Below are positions 1-8,337 of a stretch of DNA of 64,000 nt, piece after piece (positions within the stretch are counted from its first letter, which is position 1; each line of letters opens with the position of its first letter). The DNA is taken from NCBI GenBank assembly GCA_025201365.1, contig JAIXMF010000017.1, forward strand, positions 1 through 64,000, in the 5' to 3' direction. The notes below the pieces were generated by a model. That model was not told the DNA's origin, did not search any database, and saw nothing but the letters and a program-made list of their open reading frames with translations. This DNA is from Syncephalis plumigaleata (lineage: Eukaryota > Zoopagomycota > Zoopagomycetes > Zoopagales > Piptocephalidaceae). The position numbers were made by a program, and so were the translations under genes.

Positions 1-852
1 CGGAAAAGCGAGATACGTTGAATGAGCGCATAAACAGCGAGATTGGACCACAACAACGATAGTTAATGGGGGAAAGTAAAGCGCCATACAAATAGCGCTG
101 TGACTGCGTTTCTATTAATAACTATATAGGGTTAGGGTTAGGGCTGTTAATAATGGGGGATAGGTGTTAATAAATGTTAATAAATTTGTTAACTTTTTGT
201 TAACTTTTTGTTAACTTTTATTAATGGGTTCATTAGTAATTTTTGCTAGCTATTTTGCTAGTTTTAAATTGGCAATTTTTTAACTGTTAACTTTTATTAA
301 TAAATTAGTTAACATTTATTAATGGGTTCATTAGTAACTTTTTGCTAGTTTTAAGCTGCTAACCCTTGTTAATTTTACTAATGACCAATTAGTAGGTGTA
401 CTAATAGCTTTATTGCTTTTTATTAATAAACGGCTTATACGAGTGTAATGAGCATAGAAAAGTAAACAAACGGAACTTACTTGAAGCCTACACAGTATGC
501 AGAACAGCATACAGAATAGCTTAGACGCGCAAGCAATACCCGTAGCTAGTACACAGTAGAAATATAATAAACAGACGGCAGCTTACCTTGTAATACAAAG
601 AGTAGCAGATGAGCACTGTTAACGTACAAAGGAATAAACGCGCGAGTGGATCATGACGCAATTACAACTGTAAGACACTCGCAGGAACAGCACGATAGTC
701 TTGTCGCGCACAAGTGCTACAGGCTGAAGGGGAGGCGATTACAGCAGAATAAAGTGAGTATGAACGCGTGATCGTAGTGATCGTAGTGAGCGTGCGTAGA
801 AAAGCAGCGCAAACTACAAAGAAATAAGGGTAACAGGTAGGATGAATAGATC
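1..852. other. Gene-free AT-rich stretch with short duplications
   Basis: No supported reading frame. Positions 175-420 are dominated by TTAACTTTTTG and ATTAATAA words. The block TTAATGGGTTCATTAGTAA occurs twice, near 221 and 319, about 99 bases apart, so this is a two-copy degenerate tandem repeat. The ATTAATAA vocabulary recurs in the satellites at 3494-5720. From 430 to 850 the sequence is non-repetitive with no recognisable gene. Confidence 0.5.
128..143 (+). repeat. Short interstitial telomere-type tract (TTAGGG)
   Basis: The sequence reads AGGG followed by two perfect TTAGGG units. TTAGGG is the telomere repeat of most fungi and animals. The G-rich strand runs rightward into the window, whereas a chromosome end lying to the left would show CCCTAA on this strand. 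It is therefore an interstitial relic or an inverted fragment, not the chromosome end itself. Confidence 0.6.
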
Positions 853-1061
853 GCGTAGATGATGACGCGGTCTACCGTTAGATCAACAACAACAACAACA
901 AGGAGCGGTGAACAGCGAACGCGTAGATGATGACGCGAACAGCCGTTAGATCAACAACAACAACAACAACAAGAAGAAGGAGCGGTGAACAGCAAACGCG
1001 TAGATGACGACACGAACTACCGCTAGATCAACGACAACAAGAAGGAGTGGTGAACAGCGAA
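853..1061. repeat. Tandem repeat, 68-77 bp unit, three copies
   Basis: Three copies start at 853, 921 and 998. Each begins GCGTAGATGATGACGCG (with changes), then a TAGATCAACAACAAC run, then GGAGCGGTGAACAGC. The first period is 68 bases. The second is 77 because the CAA/AAG triplet tract is longer. The CAACAACAA core is a microsatellite nested inside a minisatellite. No coding potential is supported. Confidence 0.85.
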
Positions 1062-1744
1062 CGCGAGTAAAACATAAACAAGCGAGAGAGGAGAAAGTAC
1101 AAGTACGCGAGTGTGTTAAGCAAAGGTAAGCGTATACAAGGAAAAGGAATAGGAGAAAGAGAAACAAAGAACAGGTACAGCGAGCATCACGAATACGAGT
1201 AGTGAACGACAAAGAAAAAGAGAAAGGAACGAGTAAACAATAGAGAGAGAGAGGAGTGAATGTGTAAAGCAGGTGGTATTCACCAATAACCATGAATGAT
1301 TAGGAACTATTAACCGGCAGGTACATGTAACCATGCGAGTTAGTTACGCGGTATAGGTTCACGTAGGATGCACCGGTCAATATATGGAGCATATAGGCAC
1401 GTAGTCGAGAATGGCACACGTTGTTTCATAGCCTGTTGATATGTAGAGAGTGGCGTTAAACGGCGTAGACCAGGTAATAGTAGACAGAGCGGCACACGAC
1501 TGAATGTCCCTTTGACCGGGTATTATATATGCATGCTAGATCGTGAAACTAAACTGCCTTCTAGAACAGGAGTTAGTCATGATAAAGTGAAAATGTCAAG
1601 CCTCATAGGACACCCTCGAGGTCTGTTCTAGACTCACTCAGTAATAACAATAAACCTTTAGTACACCTTGCGTAGAATCACGTAGCATTAACCGATCAAT
1701 GTACGTTCCATATTACTATGTACCCGAAGACGGTATGTAACGAG

Positions 1745-3190
1745 TAACGCGGTTATTGAGCGAACGAGTAAAGAGTAAACCTTGAAGAACGAGATCGAGC
1801 GAGAGGAGTGAGTATAGTGAGTGGGGCGCATGAGCAACGAGTATATCGTGCCAGGAACGAGTATAGGGAGTATAGGGAGTAGATCGTGCAAGAGGAAGGA
1901 GTGTAGTAACTTGAACGCGCGAGGAACGAGTAGATCAAGTGAGAGAAGCGAGTACAGTGACAAGATTGAGCAAGAGGAGTGAGTAAAGCGCGCGAGGAAT
2001 GACTAGCTCGTGCAAGAGAAGTGAGTATAGTGACTTGAACGCGAGTATAGTGAGTTGCTCGAGCGGAAGAAGTGAGTAGAACGGGAAAGAAGTGAGTACA
2101 ATGACGAGCTCGTACAAGAGGAGCGAGTAGAACGAGTAAGAAGAATGAGTAAAGCGCGCAACGAACGCGATCGAGCAAGAGAAGTGAGTATAGTGGGTAT
2201 AGTGACGAGTAATGAGTTGCTCGAGCGAGAGGAACGAGTATAGTAGTAGGCTTAAGCGAGAGAAGTGAGTAGAATACGAGAGGAACAAGTATAATGACAA
2301 GAACGGGCGACTAATGAGTAGATCGAGCCAGAGGAGTAATTATAGTGACTACAACGCGCGAGGAATAAGTATAGTGAGTAGATCGAGCGCGAGGAATGTA
2401 AGTAAAGTACGCAACGAACGAGATCGAGCGGAAGGAGGGAGTAAAGCGAGTAAAGCGCGTGAGGGACGAGTATAATGAGTAAAAGAAACAAGTATGGCGT
2501 GCAACGAGCGAGTAGGTTGAACGGGAGACGAGTGTTCGAACGAGATGAGTGAGTATAAGGAGTAGGACGCACGAGTAATGAGCAGATCGAGAGAAAAACG
2601 GACAGACAGAGAGACAGACAGAGAGAGAGAGAAGTGAGTAGAACGCGAAAGCAGTGAGTATAATGACAAGATCGTGCGAGAAACAAGTAGATTAAGCGAG
2701 GAATGAGTAGAGCGCGCGAGGAAGGTAAGACGAAGGTGCGAGCGTAATGAGTATAGTGGCTAGATCCGAGCGAGAGGAGTGAACGTAGTGAGTAGACGCA
2801 CAAAGAACGAGTAAAAATAAACGCAATGACTAGAACGAGTATAACGCGTGTGACGAACGAGTAGATCGTGCAAGGGAAATAAGTATAGTGAGTAGATCGA
2901 ACGAGGAATGCGTAGAACGAGTAGATCAAGCGAGGCAAGTAAGTGGAACGGATAGAACGCGTGACGAACGTAGGAAGATGGAGCAGAGGGAGCGAGGAAG
3001 TAAGAGGAAGGAGCAGATCGTGCAAGAGGAACGAGTATAGAGAGTAAAGTGCATGAACAACGAGTAGATCGTGCGAGAGGAGTGAGTAGATCTAAAGGGG
3101 AATGAGTAGAACGCGTGAGAGAAGTGAGCGTAATGTATAGAACGCGCAACGAACGTAAGAGGAGTGAATAGATCGTACAAGAGAAACTGT
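1745..3190. repeat. Degenerate GA-rich minisatellite array
   Basis: About 1.4 kb is built from imperfect copies of phrases such as GAGTAGATCGTGCAAGAGG, AACGAGTATAGTGAGTA and GAGCGAGAGG, spaced irregularly at roughly 20-45 bases. The purine-rich strand is the plus strand. On the minus strand the bias produces several long but compositionally empty open frames rich in L, S, T, Y and R, which do not look like proteins. The region 1062-1744 is similarly GA-biased but less repetitive. Confidence 0.75.
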
Positions 3191-3493
3191 AAAAGGTATA
3201 CTAAGTAGCATTGCTATCAACGCTCGTTAGCAGTATTGTTGACTGCTATTAGTAAAGCTGTCGATCATCCATTAGTAGCATCCATCATTAACCAGGCATT
3301 AGCAATCTTATTAATATCTATTGATGTTTATTAACCATTGATTAACCATTGATGCTGATCATACACAGCTACACTCGAAGGTGGCATGTGCTTTCGACAT
3401 GCGTCCAATGATTGCACAATGCATAGCGTCGTGTTCCCCGTTGCCATGCGCGTCGAACGAATGTACATACCGCGCTCTAGCTCCATTGCCCAA

Positions 3494-4110
3494 TTTATTA
3501 ATAAAGATGTCCATTTCAGTGTGGATTATTGCAACGTCAGTGCCTCGGTCATCGATGTAGATGGCATCATTCGACGCGTAATTGATCAATTGACCATCAC
3601 TGGTGTATTAAAAATAATCGGTGATGCTGACGTTGCACAGCACTGCATCAAATCGAGTAGAATGCACTAGTGAAATAGCAAATAAAACACATGATTTATT
3701 AATAAAGATGTCCATTTCAGTGTGGATTATTGCAACGTCAGTACGCCGGTCATCGATGTAGATGGCATTATTCGACGCGTAATTGGCCAATTGACCATCA
3801 CTAGTGTATTAAAAATAATCGGTGATGCTGACGTTGCACAGCACTGCATCAAATCGAGTAGAATGCACTAGTGAAATAGCAAATAAAACGAGTGATTTAT
3901 TAATAAAGATGTCCATTTCAGTGTGGATTATTGCAACGTCAGTGTCTCGGTCATCGATGTAGATGGCATCATTCGACGCGTAATTGGCCAATTGACCATC
4001 ACTAGTGTATTAAAAATAATCGGTGATGCTGACGTTGCACAGCGCTGCATCAAATCGAGTAGAATGCACTAGTGAAATAGCAAATAAAACACATGATTTA
4101 TTAATAAAAG
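3494..4110. repeat. 201-bp satellite, three full units
   Basis: Units begin with TTTATTAATAAAGATGTCC at 3494, 3695 and 3896, exactly 201 bases apart. A fourth start at 4097 diverges after about 15 bases. Each unit carries a 12-base perfect palindrome (AATTGATCAATT at 3580; AATTGGCCAATT at 3781 and 3982). The block 3400-3493 upstream is non-repeat. Because 201 is a multiple of three, repeated 60-codon open frames appear on the minus strand, and these are by-products of the repeat. Confidence 0.92.
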
Positions 4111-4317
4111 TACTTGGTTTAATGCGGATTTCTTAGTTGTTACAACCACTAATTGCAGTGTAATTAGTACCATTAGATGGCCAAGTGACTAGGCTACATT
4201 TATTAACAAATAGACGAGCGGGAATTGATACTAATGTTGCACAAGCTGAGTGTAAACATTAATAAAACATTACTCGAATAGGCAATACCATTAATAAACG
4301 ATCGATTTTACCGCTAT

Positions 4318-4500
4318 TTATTATTAATAATGCATGTGATTCGCCGTAGTATTGAGTGACGTCAGTACCGATTATTGCTCATCTGTCGACTATTAATGGC
4401 TAATACGGACATTGCGCATCTAATGGTACTAATTACACGGTCACTACGACATCCAAATATTCAGTAGTCCATGCTAAAGTGAGCAATTTTACTAATAAAT
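4318..4500. repeat. Left flanking block of the 191-bp satellite
   Basis: Two sub-blocks recur on the far side of the array. ATGCATGTGATTCGCCGTAG lies near 4331 and again near 5676. CACGGTCACTACGACATCC lies near 4437 and again near 5582. The order of the two sub-blocks relative to the array is swapped between the sides, so this is a larger duplicated framework and not a simple inverted flank. Confidence 0.7.
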
Positions 4501-4520
4501 TACTATAATAATCGTTGATC

Positions 4521-5540
4521 TTTATTGATAATTACGCGTATGATGTGCCATATCGGTACTATAAATGTCCACTAATCTGCTAATAGCTGGTTAATACGAC
4601 GATTACGCGTCGAATGGTACTAACTACGCGGTGATTAAGACATGTGACAATGCAGTAATCGGCATTGAATCGGACATTTTTACTAATAAATTACTATTTT
4701 AATCGTCGATCTTTATTGATAATTGCGCGTATGATGTGCCATATCGGTACTATAAATGTCCACTAATCTGCTAATAGCTGGTTAATACGACGATTACGCG
4801 TCGAATGGTACTAACTACGCGGTGATTAAGACATGTGACAGTGCAGTAATCGGCATTGAAACAAGCAGATTTACTAGTAAATTACTATAATAATCGTTGA
4901 TCTTTATTGATAATTACGCGTATGATGTGCCATATCGGTACTATGAATGTCCACTAATCTGCTAATAGCTGGTTAATACGACGATTGCGCGTCGAATGGT
5001 ACTAACTACGCGGTGATTAAGACATGTGACAGTGCAGTGATCGGCATTGAATCGGACATTTTTACTAATAAATTACTATTTTAATCGTCGATCTTTATTG
5101 ATAATTACGCGTATGATGTGCCATATCGGTACTATAAATGTCCACTAATCTGCTAATAGCTGGTTAATACGACGATTACGCGTCGAATGGTACTAACTAC
5201 GCGGTGATTAAGACATGTGACATTGCAGTGATCGGCATTGAAACAAGCAGATTTACTAGTAAATTACTATAATAATCGTTGATCTTTATTGATAATTACG
5301 CGTATGATGTGCCATATCGGTACTATGAATGTCCACTAATCTGCTAATAGCTGGTTAATACGACGATTGCGCGTCGAATGGTACTAACTACGCGGTGATT
5401 AAGACATGTGACAATGCAGTAATCGGCATTGAATCGGACATTTTTACTAATAAATTACTATAATAATCGCTGATCTTTATTGATAATTACGCGTATGATG
5501 TGTCATATCGGTACTATGAATGCCCGCTAATCTGCTAATA
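4521..5540. repeat. 191-bp satellite with 382-bp dimeric higher-order structure
   Basis: The anchor TTTATTGATAATT occurs at 4521, 4712, 4903, 5094, 5285 and 5476, exactly 191 bases apart each time. Two monomer types alternate. Units at 4903 and 5285 share the ACAAGCAGATTTACTAG linker, TATGAATGTCC and GATTGCGCGTCG. Units at 4712 and 5094 share CGGACATTTTTACTAAT, TATAAATGTCC and GATTACGCGTCG. The unit at 5476 has a hybrid upstream linker, type A on its left and type B on its right. No transcript or protein is supported. Confidence 0.93.
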
Positions 5541-5880
5541 GCTGGTTAATACGGACACTGCGCATCTAATGGTACTAATTACACGGTCACTACGACATCC
5601 AAATATTTAGTAGTCCACGTTAAAGTGGGCCGTTCTATTAATAAACAAGTATTTTATTTGCTATTTATTATTAATAATGCATGTGATTCGCCGTAGTATT
5701 GAGTGACGTCAGTGCCAATTCCAGCCTGTTTTAATTAGCAAATAAATGTAGAGACGCCTCTTGGCTATCTAACAGTATTAAGTACAATGCGATTAGTTTA
5801 ACGTGGATTATTGCAACGTAGAACACTCGGCCATCGATGTAGGTGACATCATTCGACGCGCAATTGGCTGATTAATTATT
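5540..5880. repeat. Right flanking block and relic 201-bp unit
   Basis: 5545-5640 repeats the CACGGTCACTACGACATCC block. 5663-5720 repeats the ATGCATGTGATTCGCCGTAG block seen left of the array. 5798-5875 (GTGGATTATTGCAACGT ... CATCGATGTAGGTGACATC) is a diverged copy of the 201-bp satellite in which the 12-base palindrome is broken. The two satellite families are therefore interleaved at one locus. Confidence 0.7.
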
Positions 5881-6130
5881 ATTCACCCTATACGCACTAC
5901 CCCCTTCACTTTCCATCCTCTAACTCATCACTATCATCTCCCTTCATCCATTTCATCGGTGCATCTATCCATCCACTCAACGCTCTTTCATTCCACGTAT
6001 GTTATATGCTATTCTATGTACGCTTTATTACACACCATTCCATGTTCCTTCTCTTCTTCTCTCTTGCCTTCTCTTCTCCCACCATAAACAATCCTTTGTT
6101 CACTTGTCGTTTGCATATCCATTGCCGTGA

Positions 6131-6420
6131 CACTCATAGGAGGTGGATATGTTCACTAGTGCACTTGTGAACGCACTCGCTTTGTTTATTAACTGACTCG
6201 CTGACTAGTTCACTCGTCAACCGCGTATCTATCACCGTGACACTCGTAGGAGGTGGATATGCACACTCACACACTCGCTAACCTGCTTGTTTGTTTACTA
6301 GCTGACTAGCTGACTAGTTCACTCGTCAACCGCGTATCTATCACCGTACCACTCGTAGGAGGTGGATATGTTCACTCATACACTCGCTAACTACTTGTTT
6401 GTTTACGCGTTACTTCTTTA
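6131..6420. repeat. 110-bp tandem repeat, about 2.6 copies
   Basis: The phrase CACTCGTAGGAGGTGGATATG (first copy CACTCATAGG...) starts at 6131, 6241 and 6350. Between copies lies CTGACTAGTTCACTCGTCAACCG followed by GTATCTATCACCGT. Periods are 110 and 109. The repeat is unrelated to the 191 and 201 bp families and has no coding potential. Confidence 0.85.
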
Positions 6421-8337
6421 TTACTCTCACTATTTGATCTGCCAATCATCATTCCTGCTTCCCTTGATTCTTTTGCTTACTCTTCCACCTCTACCCGTCT
6501 TTCCCCGTTAGCCACTCTCCATCTGCTCCTCGCTACGCTAACACTACACGTTCTTACCTGAATACACTCCCATCTCTGTACTCCTCTTCTCATTACTCGT
6601 TTGTTGTTCTCGGTCACCTTCACTATTCGTATATTCCTATTCCTATTGTTGCTGCTGCTGCTCTAGCAATAAGTCAACGCCACGTCATACGTTTACGCGT
6701 TCTATTCGTTCTCTCTATTGCCTTTACTTATTTGCGGCTTGTGGTGCTTCTCTACGGACAGCCACTGCAATTACACGTTATACGCACTTTATTCCGCTGT
6801 GTTTGTCCTCCACTCTATAGCACTCGTACACGATAAGGCTACACTGTTTATTTGTATTGTAGTCTGGTGCTTGTACCTGTGCACGATACTCCTGCTACTT
6901 GTTGACCCTCTCCCTTGTTTATCAAACTACGATACTGCACTCTCGTCAGATCCGTACCATTTACCCGTATTCTATCACTGTATGCTCCTATGGAATACTC
7001 GCACTGTTTGCTTACCAGTCCGTATTCGTATTGTTATTAGTTTGTATTGACTATTAGAAGTAGCTTTATATACGTACATGCAGGTTAGTCGATCAGGAAT
7101 GTACTGCTATAGCTTCTCCCGGTAGTATGCCATTTGCTAAAGCATATTGTTTGGTCAATATCACTCACAGCAAACGCTGCTTCTCAATAGTTATTGACAG
7201 CACTGCTTGTTGCTTGTACTGATAGCTCGTTCGCTTACTCGTCCACTACTCTATTCATACACTCGTATCTCTATTGTTTATTTGTAATCTACACGGTAAG
7301 TGGTGTATACGCGGTATTCACTCTATTCACTAGCTGCTGCTGCTGCTCCTCTTTCTTGTTCTGCCAACTCTGTTTGTTTGTTTGTTTGTTTGTTTGTTTA
7401 TATTCTATAAGCATACGTGCTCATTCGCTCTATTCACTCCTACTGCTATCCATACTACTTTTCTCTCTGCTTTATTCTCATTCAGCCAATAAACACCATA
7501 TCAACTTCATACATATTGCTGTATTCTCTACACTCTATTGAACATGCTTTGCTTTCAACCAATACAACTAGCTACTACTACTACTACCACTGCTATTTCT
7601 ATCATTCATATTCAGTTATCAGCAGTATACAATCAACTAGAATATATCATTCATCCACTCACTGATGATGCATTAATATCGATGGATGTATGCTTATCTG
7701 TAGTCATTGTAATGAGTTGTATAGCAAATCATCGAACAACACAATAGATACTGACCATCTGACGTGATCGTGCGTGCATTGACATGGATACACTACTACT
7801 ACCTGATACTTGAATCACGAACTATAACTGAATGACAGCATAACTTACAAGTAGAAACAATGGTTTAATGGTCATTGCCATCATAGTTGGAGTGTATTCA
7901 ATGACTTGTCTATTATCTTGAATGCTCTAATGCTAGCTAGTTGCATACCAATGCATTATGTGATTGAGCTATTATTGGAGCTAAATCGAATTCCATTGAT
8001 TTCCATTTCAATATCAATCATGCATGTTTCAATCGCAGCTGAATTCAATACACTATTCTGGGTTTCACATATGGTAGCGGTAACAGAATCGAAACAGTAA
8101 TGACTATCGTAAATGGCATTCAATATCTATAATTGGTAATTACACATGGTAAGCAATACCGTTTCTGTTTATTTTATATTCCGCTTAAAAGACGTTTCAG
8201 TACCGCTACCATCGATTACTCACCTATAAATGAGCAGCCATTTGCCGTGAACAATTCGATAGCTCACTATACTCTTCTCATTTACACGCACAACATACGC
8301 ACATTCACTTCTTTATTCTTAGACCGTAACGATCAAT
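6421..8337. other. Pyrimidine-rich gene-free region
   Basis: The plus strand is C/T-rich with GTTTGTTTG runs (7371-7398) and CTGCTGCTG/CTACTACTA triplets. Open frames here are leucine/serine/cysteine-rich, mostly lack ATG starts and match no family I recognise. The right-hand part, 7900-8337, directly precedes the kinase-like gene and probably contains its promoter. Confidence 0.4.

Follow-up and report, generated by a model that had tools for sequence, protein, structure and literature searches.

The window (the whole stretch of DNA analysed, comprising the first 64,000 bases of the 506,240-bp contig C79, from a mycoparasitic fungus whose assembly has 383 contigs and 32.64 Mb) carries in its first 8 kb a block of tandem units flanked by dispersed non-coding repeats. 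A protease encoded in the window is closest, among the matches listed, to a protein of Syncephalis fuscata (78%). In window coordinates, and with Tandem Repeats Finder abbreviated as TRF, the features are as follows.

1..1744, + strand: L and M, part of a dispersed non-coding repeat, with TTAGGGTTAGGG (TTAGGG twice) at 132-143
1260..3480, + strand: purine-rich degenerate minisatellite, matched at full length only on C315, C184 and C57 (96-99%) among the matches listed
3494..4090, + strand: three S1 units of 201 bp (TRF, genome search, unit map)
3495..5644, no strand assigned: a phased series of twelve boxes, each TTATTAATAA or a variant of it with at most two changes, spaced 190-201 bp apart and running across all four unit types; starts at 3495, 3696, 3897, 4098, 4288, 4489, 4680, 4871, 5062, 5253, 5444 and 5635
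4091..4287, + strand: one S1b unit, a type that also interrupts the S1 arrays on C184, C315 and C57
4281..4499, + strand: S3-type unit to the left of the S2 array, 92% identical to S3 over 4341-4499
4487..5441, + strand: five S2 monomers of 191 bp (lag identity, core positions, monomer comparison, TRF)
4517, 4708, 4899, 5090, 5281 and 5472: starts of the six S2 monomer cores, each step 191 bp
4678..5441, + strand: AB-AB dimer duplication within the five-monomer S2 stretch
5442..5598, + strand: sixth monomer, its first half S2-like and its second half S3-like, the switch lying between about 5522 and 5542
5543..5720, + strand: S3-type sequence to the right of the S2 array (genome search, unit map)
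5803..5868, + strand: degenerate S1 fragment (87%, S1 positions 28-93)
5880..7896, + strand: copy of R, which likewise belongs to the dispersed repeat, on the gene side of the block (genome search)

Unit types of the composite block

The S2 array forms the central part of a composite block of satellite DNA, built from four unit types of about 200 bp, namely S1 (201 bp), S1b (about 198 bp), S2 (191 bp) and S3 (about 201 bp). Genome searches returned at least 49 matches for S1, at least 15 for S2 and at least 119 for S3, partly fragments, with arrays running off contig ends. The S2 matches fall at three loci, on C79, C57 and C184, and at all three S2 lies between S1-type and S3-type units. The order on C184 is sixteen S1/S1b units (aabaaaaaabaaabab, where a is S1 and b is S1b), S2, and 23 S3 units reaching the contig end, the first of them partial; on C57 it is S1/S1b, four S2 monomers plus a hybrid, and 20 S3 units, again with a partial first one. 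The unit string on C315 reads aabaaabaabaaa, with S1b at irregular steps. Several loci carry head-to-tail units that hardly vary in length, which bears out the description of this DNA as satellite-type and non-coding in a fungus. The longest stop-to-stop frame in the S2 array is 36 amino acids, and a coding repeat was ruled out for want of a long frame; no coding role is indicated for the block. A repeat linked to ribosomal or tRNA genes was likewise ruled out, the window containing neither an Rfam match at gathering scores nor a tRNA.

S2 and S3 align at 62% over 213 columns with a z score of 9.3, a score reached by none of 100 dinucleotide shuffles, and on this alignment S2 is a diverged sister of S3. 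The corresponding values were z = 2.8 for S1 against S2 (score 78.0, under the best shuffle at 80.0) and z = 3.8 for S1 against S3 (score 82.5, narrowly over the best shuffle at 81.0), so that no clear relation links S1 with either type, a distant S1-S3 kinship being possible. The units have a second word in common, AATGGTACTAA. Its S1b occurrence is inverted and falls within a longer inverted match to S3 (read by eye), and it is counted as descent.

Flanking repeats and chromosomal place

The flanks of the block belong to sequences found widely in the genome. The L segment (window 1-850) gave at least 49 match rows, many of them mid-contig and some copies split into two rows (40 of 91 candidates scored), and R, for which 39 of 121 candidates were scored, gave at least 115, a good many being tandem pieces; window 6125-7896 aligns inverted to C184:3418-1647. 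R and L occur at many places together with a third segment, P. Together these parts form R-P-L-M, a repeat of some 6 kb that is non-coding and dispersed, seen for example at C333:24.9-30.4 kb and C109:5.5-11.4 kb. P has 19 matches of at least 1.4 kb, the C184 query included, the others being 89-96% alike, and TTAGGGTTAGGG lies within L both in the window and in the C184 copies. Further tandem arrays derived from part of R (query 219-527), with many steps near 215 bp, were observed at C48:4.5-11.2 kb, C271:9.5-14.9 kb and C168:114-116 kb.

Placement of the block in a subtelomere, with turnover by ectopic exchange between chromosome ends, is compatible with the explanation of the array preferred below, and we regard it as a possible proposal, rather less likely than not. 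Eight S-bearing contigs have their arrays at or near a contig end or are shorter than 20 kb (the length of C113 was not read), and TTAGGG occurs twice at window 132-143. C316, the only contig found with at least four TTAGGG in a row (a TTAGGC array followed by TTAGGG at the contig end), bears at this telomere end a short match to P (82% over 128 bp) together with matches of 72-77 bp (76-78%) to the sequence that directly precedes the S1 array. However, any repeat can break contigs, L lies mid-contig at many places, and the 895 bp next to the C316 telomere have no S-unit match beyond the first dozen bases.

The S blocks might alternatively be pericentromeric, forming the outer arms of regional centromeres. 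In favour of this, the L segment at window 1-850 recurs in the arms of symmetric palindromic clusters, and a Piwi-domain sequence is present, which would make small-RNA heterochromatin possible. Against it, L is widely dispersed, a CENP-C domain was not found in a search run without a eukaryotic positive control, and the S1, S2 and S3 searches gave, among the matches listed, none on C1, C2, C13, C223, C236 or C372, the six contigs bearing candidate centromere cores. Since S units are unmatched at these candidate cores, a pericentromeric role is rated low, as unlikely.

The palindromic clusters themselves, each with a fold-back core of 2.3-3.0 kb, lie at C1:1,528,044-1,546,913, C2:57-95 kb, C223:353-379 kb, C372:1.1-26.4 kb, C236:1.2-16.5 kb and C13:1-20.3 kb, with a core also at the start of C283. 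The C1 core matches its reverse complement at 94% identity, its cluster is centred at about 50.5% of the contig, and the cores of five other long clusters are 71-83% alike to it. Judged from coordinates, mirror-symmetric, outward-pointing L/P arms are present on C1, C2, C223, C372 and C236 and are not clear on C13. By this fission-yeast-like layout, the clusters appear to be better centromere candidates than the S blocks. Fission yeast regional centromeres (PMC6538654) resemble these palindromic clusters and not the S2 array; S units are, among the matches listed, not matched within the clusters.

A third possibility is that the tandem units are internal parts of R-P-L-M, acting as a large non-coding mobile element that moved them. 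R, P and L do occur together at many places, L and R flank the C79 block, and the order on C184 is R-P-L-minisatellite-S1-S2-S3. Searches with window 1260-3480 make such carriage improbable: seven matches end at position 1744, others extend further, and of the 40 matches listed that start at 1260-1262, only four (the window itself, C315, C184 and C57) reach the S1 array, with 15 ending at 1744-1818 and 21 at 2018-2477, and no S units matched beside those.

Monomer order in S2 and in related arrays

The sequence-only reading had described six 191-bp monomers at an exact spacing of 191 bases, alternating between two types, with a 382-bp dimer as the true unit. The spacing is confirmed by the cores starting from 4517 to 5472 and by TRF, which reported a single array at 4487-5598 with period 191, 5.8 copies and a score of 1900. 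Within the array, a shift of 191 bp gives 93.5% identity and a shift of 382 bp gives 97.3%, with a drop to 18-20% one base off either lag, so copies at the dimer level are closer than adjacent monomers. The alternation holds in part: monomers 2-5, and only these, show an ABAB pattern at 12 of 15 variable sites, whereas monomer 1 is a mosaic (with an S3-like linker, and resembling A at sites 32-41 and B at sites 88 and 130) and monomer 6 is an S2/S3 hybrid with 82-83% identity to the remaining five. The dimer is present in two copies at C79; between them one monomer has 3 differences in 191 bases and the other has 2 (98.4% and 99.0% alike). Because these two copies are nearly identical while types A and B stand about 7% apart, the duplication would be recent and local. 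When TRF was limited to monomers 2-5 (4678-5441), period 382 was favoured (2.0 copies, 98%, score 1493) over period 191 (93%, score 1349), whereas the full array yielded 191 alone and no 382. The box in the A-type linkers (window 4871 and 5253) reads TTACTAGTAA, a perfect palindrome, and that in the B-type linkers TTACTAATAA, which is non-palindromic.

The other two S2 loci follow a different order. On C57, monomers 2-4 are 100% identical, the first is 96.9% identical to those, the fifth is an S2/S3 hybrid, and the linkers are of a single type throughout; C184 has one full monomer and one hybrid, with no alternation. An S2/S3 hybrid unit thus closes the S2 array at all three loci, C79 included. 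The last linker at C79, between the cores at 5281 and 5472, had been read as an A/B hybrid left by unequal exchange. The combination exists, yet it also precedes five of five cores on C57 and one of two on C184 (6/7 together); because it is common there, it need not be a product of A-B exchange and would most simply be an older state that gave rise to both C79 linker types. The ABAB stretch is most simply explained by local unequal exchange, or slippage, with a register of 382 bp; the hybrid linker is poor evidence of exchange between A and B. The proposed comparison of monomer order among other copies, in which random order would have counted against the claim and genome-wide alternation for it, gave neither: the order is unmixed, with one type on C57, and genome-wide alternation is refuted as well, the alternation being local by this comparison.

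Order was further assessed by permutation in ten arrays (20,000 permutations each, best of eight offsets as the statistic). For C79 S2, a weak test with five monomers, offset 2 was reached in 1,335 of 20,000 permutations and the best-offset statistic in 7,998. The best-offset counts elsewhere, again of 20,000, were 10 (C57 S3), 572 (C305 S3), 1,073 (C101 S3), 1,953 (C315 S1), 2,253 (C57 S1), 3,482 (C184 S3), 4,206 (C184 S1), 10,101 (C336 S3) and 20,000 (C57 S2); the S1 sets include S1b units, so offsets in S1 arrays reflect S1b placement. Only C57 S3, where offset 3 was reached in 0 of 20,000 permutations, survives the ten tests, showing a trimer tendency, and a higher-order unit was rejected for the remaining arrays. 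TRF scored a 604-bp period slightly above 201 in C101 S3 (10,823 vs 10,783). Near-identical or equally or nearly equally scoring stretches were seen between C305 and C101:388-398 kb, C108 and C112, and C42 and C57:368 kb, suggesting that such pairs of a small and a large contig may be haplotigs or duplicated contigs.

We also considered whether the alternation could be an assembly artefact, produced by collapse or mis-joining of a longer array. Array lengths do depend on the assembly, whose breaks fall within these arrays: five contigs (C184, C315, C101, C336 and C305) end inside an S1 or S3 array, and C305 matches the C101 end at 98.9% identity across 10 kb that include open frames, so redundant contigs exist. 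The S2 array nevertheless measures under 1.2 kb, so that a long read of typical length would span it, and a similar S2/S3 end unit recurs at 3/3 loci, which leaves an artefact with a small chance.

In dimeric higher-order satellites of plants and animals, as presented in PMC4053949, the AB dimer is itself tandemly repeated; the S2 array is like these in that two monomer variants alternate and dimers are more alike than monomers, and unlike them in having two dimer copies only, at one of the three loci found. A multimer acting as the repeating unit of the array was not found at C79 (2.0 dimer copies), nor was the same monomer order seen across the loci of the family (C57, C184). That the AB dimer is the genomic unit of a true dimeric satellite, as its identity at lag 382 and the period of 382 on monomers 2-5 would favour, is very improbable given just two copies, no alternation on C57 or C184, and 191 alone over the entire array. 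The claim of a higher-order satellite would thus have stood on two copies of a dimer.

A shared palindromic box and changes of unit type

The box TTATTAATAA is a 10-bp, AT-only sequence equal to its own reverse complement. It is exact in S1, S1b and S3 and has one mismatch in S2, and a 10-mer common to three of the four unit types was reached in 2 of 1,000 dinucleotide shuffles. The window holds nine exact boxes against 0.26 expected, eight of the nine within the first 5.7 kb. Allowing up to two mismatches, as for the twelve phased boxes listed above, is a loose standard, under which 3490-5720 contains 33 sites versus about 5 expected from the rate in 8001-64000. On C184, exact boxes recur every 201-202 bp across the 16 S1/S1b units and every 197-202 bp across the 23 S3 units, while some S3 units on C57, C101 and C336 lack an exact box. 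Genome-wide, at least 150 box pairs at 195-205 bp were found, as against 0 for the reversed pattern; among the box-pair matches listed, three places fall in the P repeat and not in satellites. The box is exact in 40 of 40 S1 units, yet 51 of 192 windows are equally invariant, and exact in 88% of 86 S3 units, where its conservation ranks 48 of 192 (the C305 S3 array, a near-copy of C101, and eight S1b units were omitted from these counts). Better conservation of the box than of its surroundings is therefore unsupported within each family, and constraint on it is suggested only by its sharing between families.

Unit types change at the box in three of four cases in the window (S1 to S1b near 4097, S1b to S3 at 4288, S3 to S2 at 4489), a count that sets aside the degenerate S1 fragment at 5803-5868 and that, as units were cut near the box, is partly a product of the chosen register. 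The fourth change, from S2 to S3 near 5540, lies away from the box. Ungapped comparison resolved 10 of the 12 S1-to-S1b changes, and in all ten the homology switches at the 12-bp box zone; at these seams the left 40 bp are 90-97% identical to S1, the box is 100% identical, and the right 40 bp are 97-100% identical to S1b and 40-42% to S1. The reverse change, S1b to S1, was resolved by the same comparison in 3 of 9 cases.

The nearest published parallel found is the satellite library of the nematode Meloidogyne, for which PMC3694981 describes changes of monomer type at conserved boxes, Box 1 being 17 bp long and CENP-B-box-like. Both systems have divergent monomers with a common short motif, adjacent simple and mixed arrays, and, here for part of the junctions, type changes at the motif; the Meloidogyne library, however, belongs to an animal and has the 17-bp Box 1 and a fixed higher-order unit, whereas here a fungus carries a 10-bp AT-only palindrome and an irregular unit order. 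The same source also cites alpha satellite with its CENP-B box (PMC3694981). With units of about 170-200 bp and a phased short box, the S units share a likeness of layout with alpha satellite. Alpha satellite itself consists of units of roughly 170-200 bp in which the CENP-B box is phased.

We consider it highly probable that, as a whole, the locus is a local AB dimer pair set in a box-phased patchwork of four unit types that would be exchanged at the box. Arrays would grow and homogenise locally through unequal exchange or replication slippage, and with such local homogenisation each locus would keep its own short-range pattern, namely the dimer pair on C79, the repeated monomer on C57 and the trimer tendency of C57 S3. 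The box, whether by offering short homology or by being bound, would act as a seam for the exchange between arrays of units that are alike in length and unlike in sequence. On the possible chromatin role put forward for the repeat, unit lengths of 191-203 bp fit nucleosome spacing and prove nothing. More speculatively, and with a low probability in our estimate, TTATTAATAA could be a protein-binding site that phases 191-203-bp units at nucleosome scale while serving as the exchange seam, a fungal counterpart to the logic of the CENP-B box in (peri)centromeric or subtelomeric heterochromatin of a zoopagomycete.

Little was found in the literature on satellites of early-diverging fungi, and this block, in a genome of 32.6 Mb, combines local homogenisation, several unit types of the same length and a shared box at many seams. 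The satellite is real and its order had been over-read; the box-phased patchwork is the part worth pursuing.
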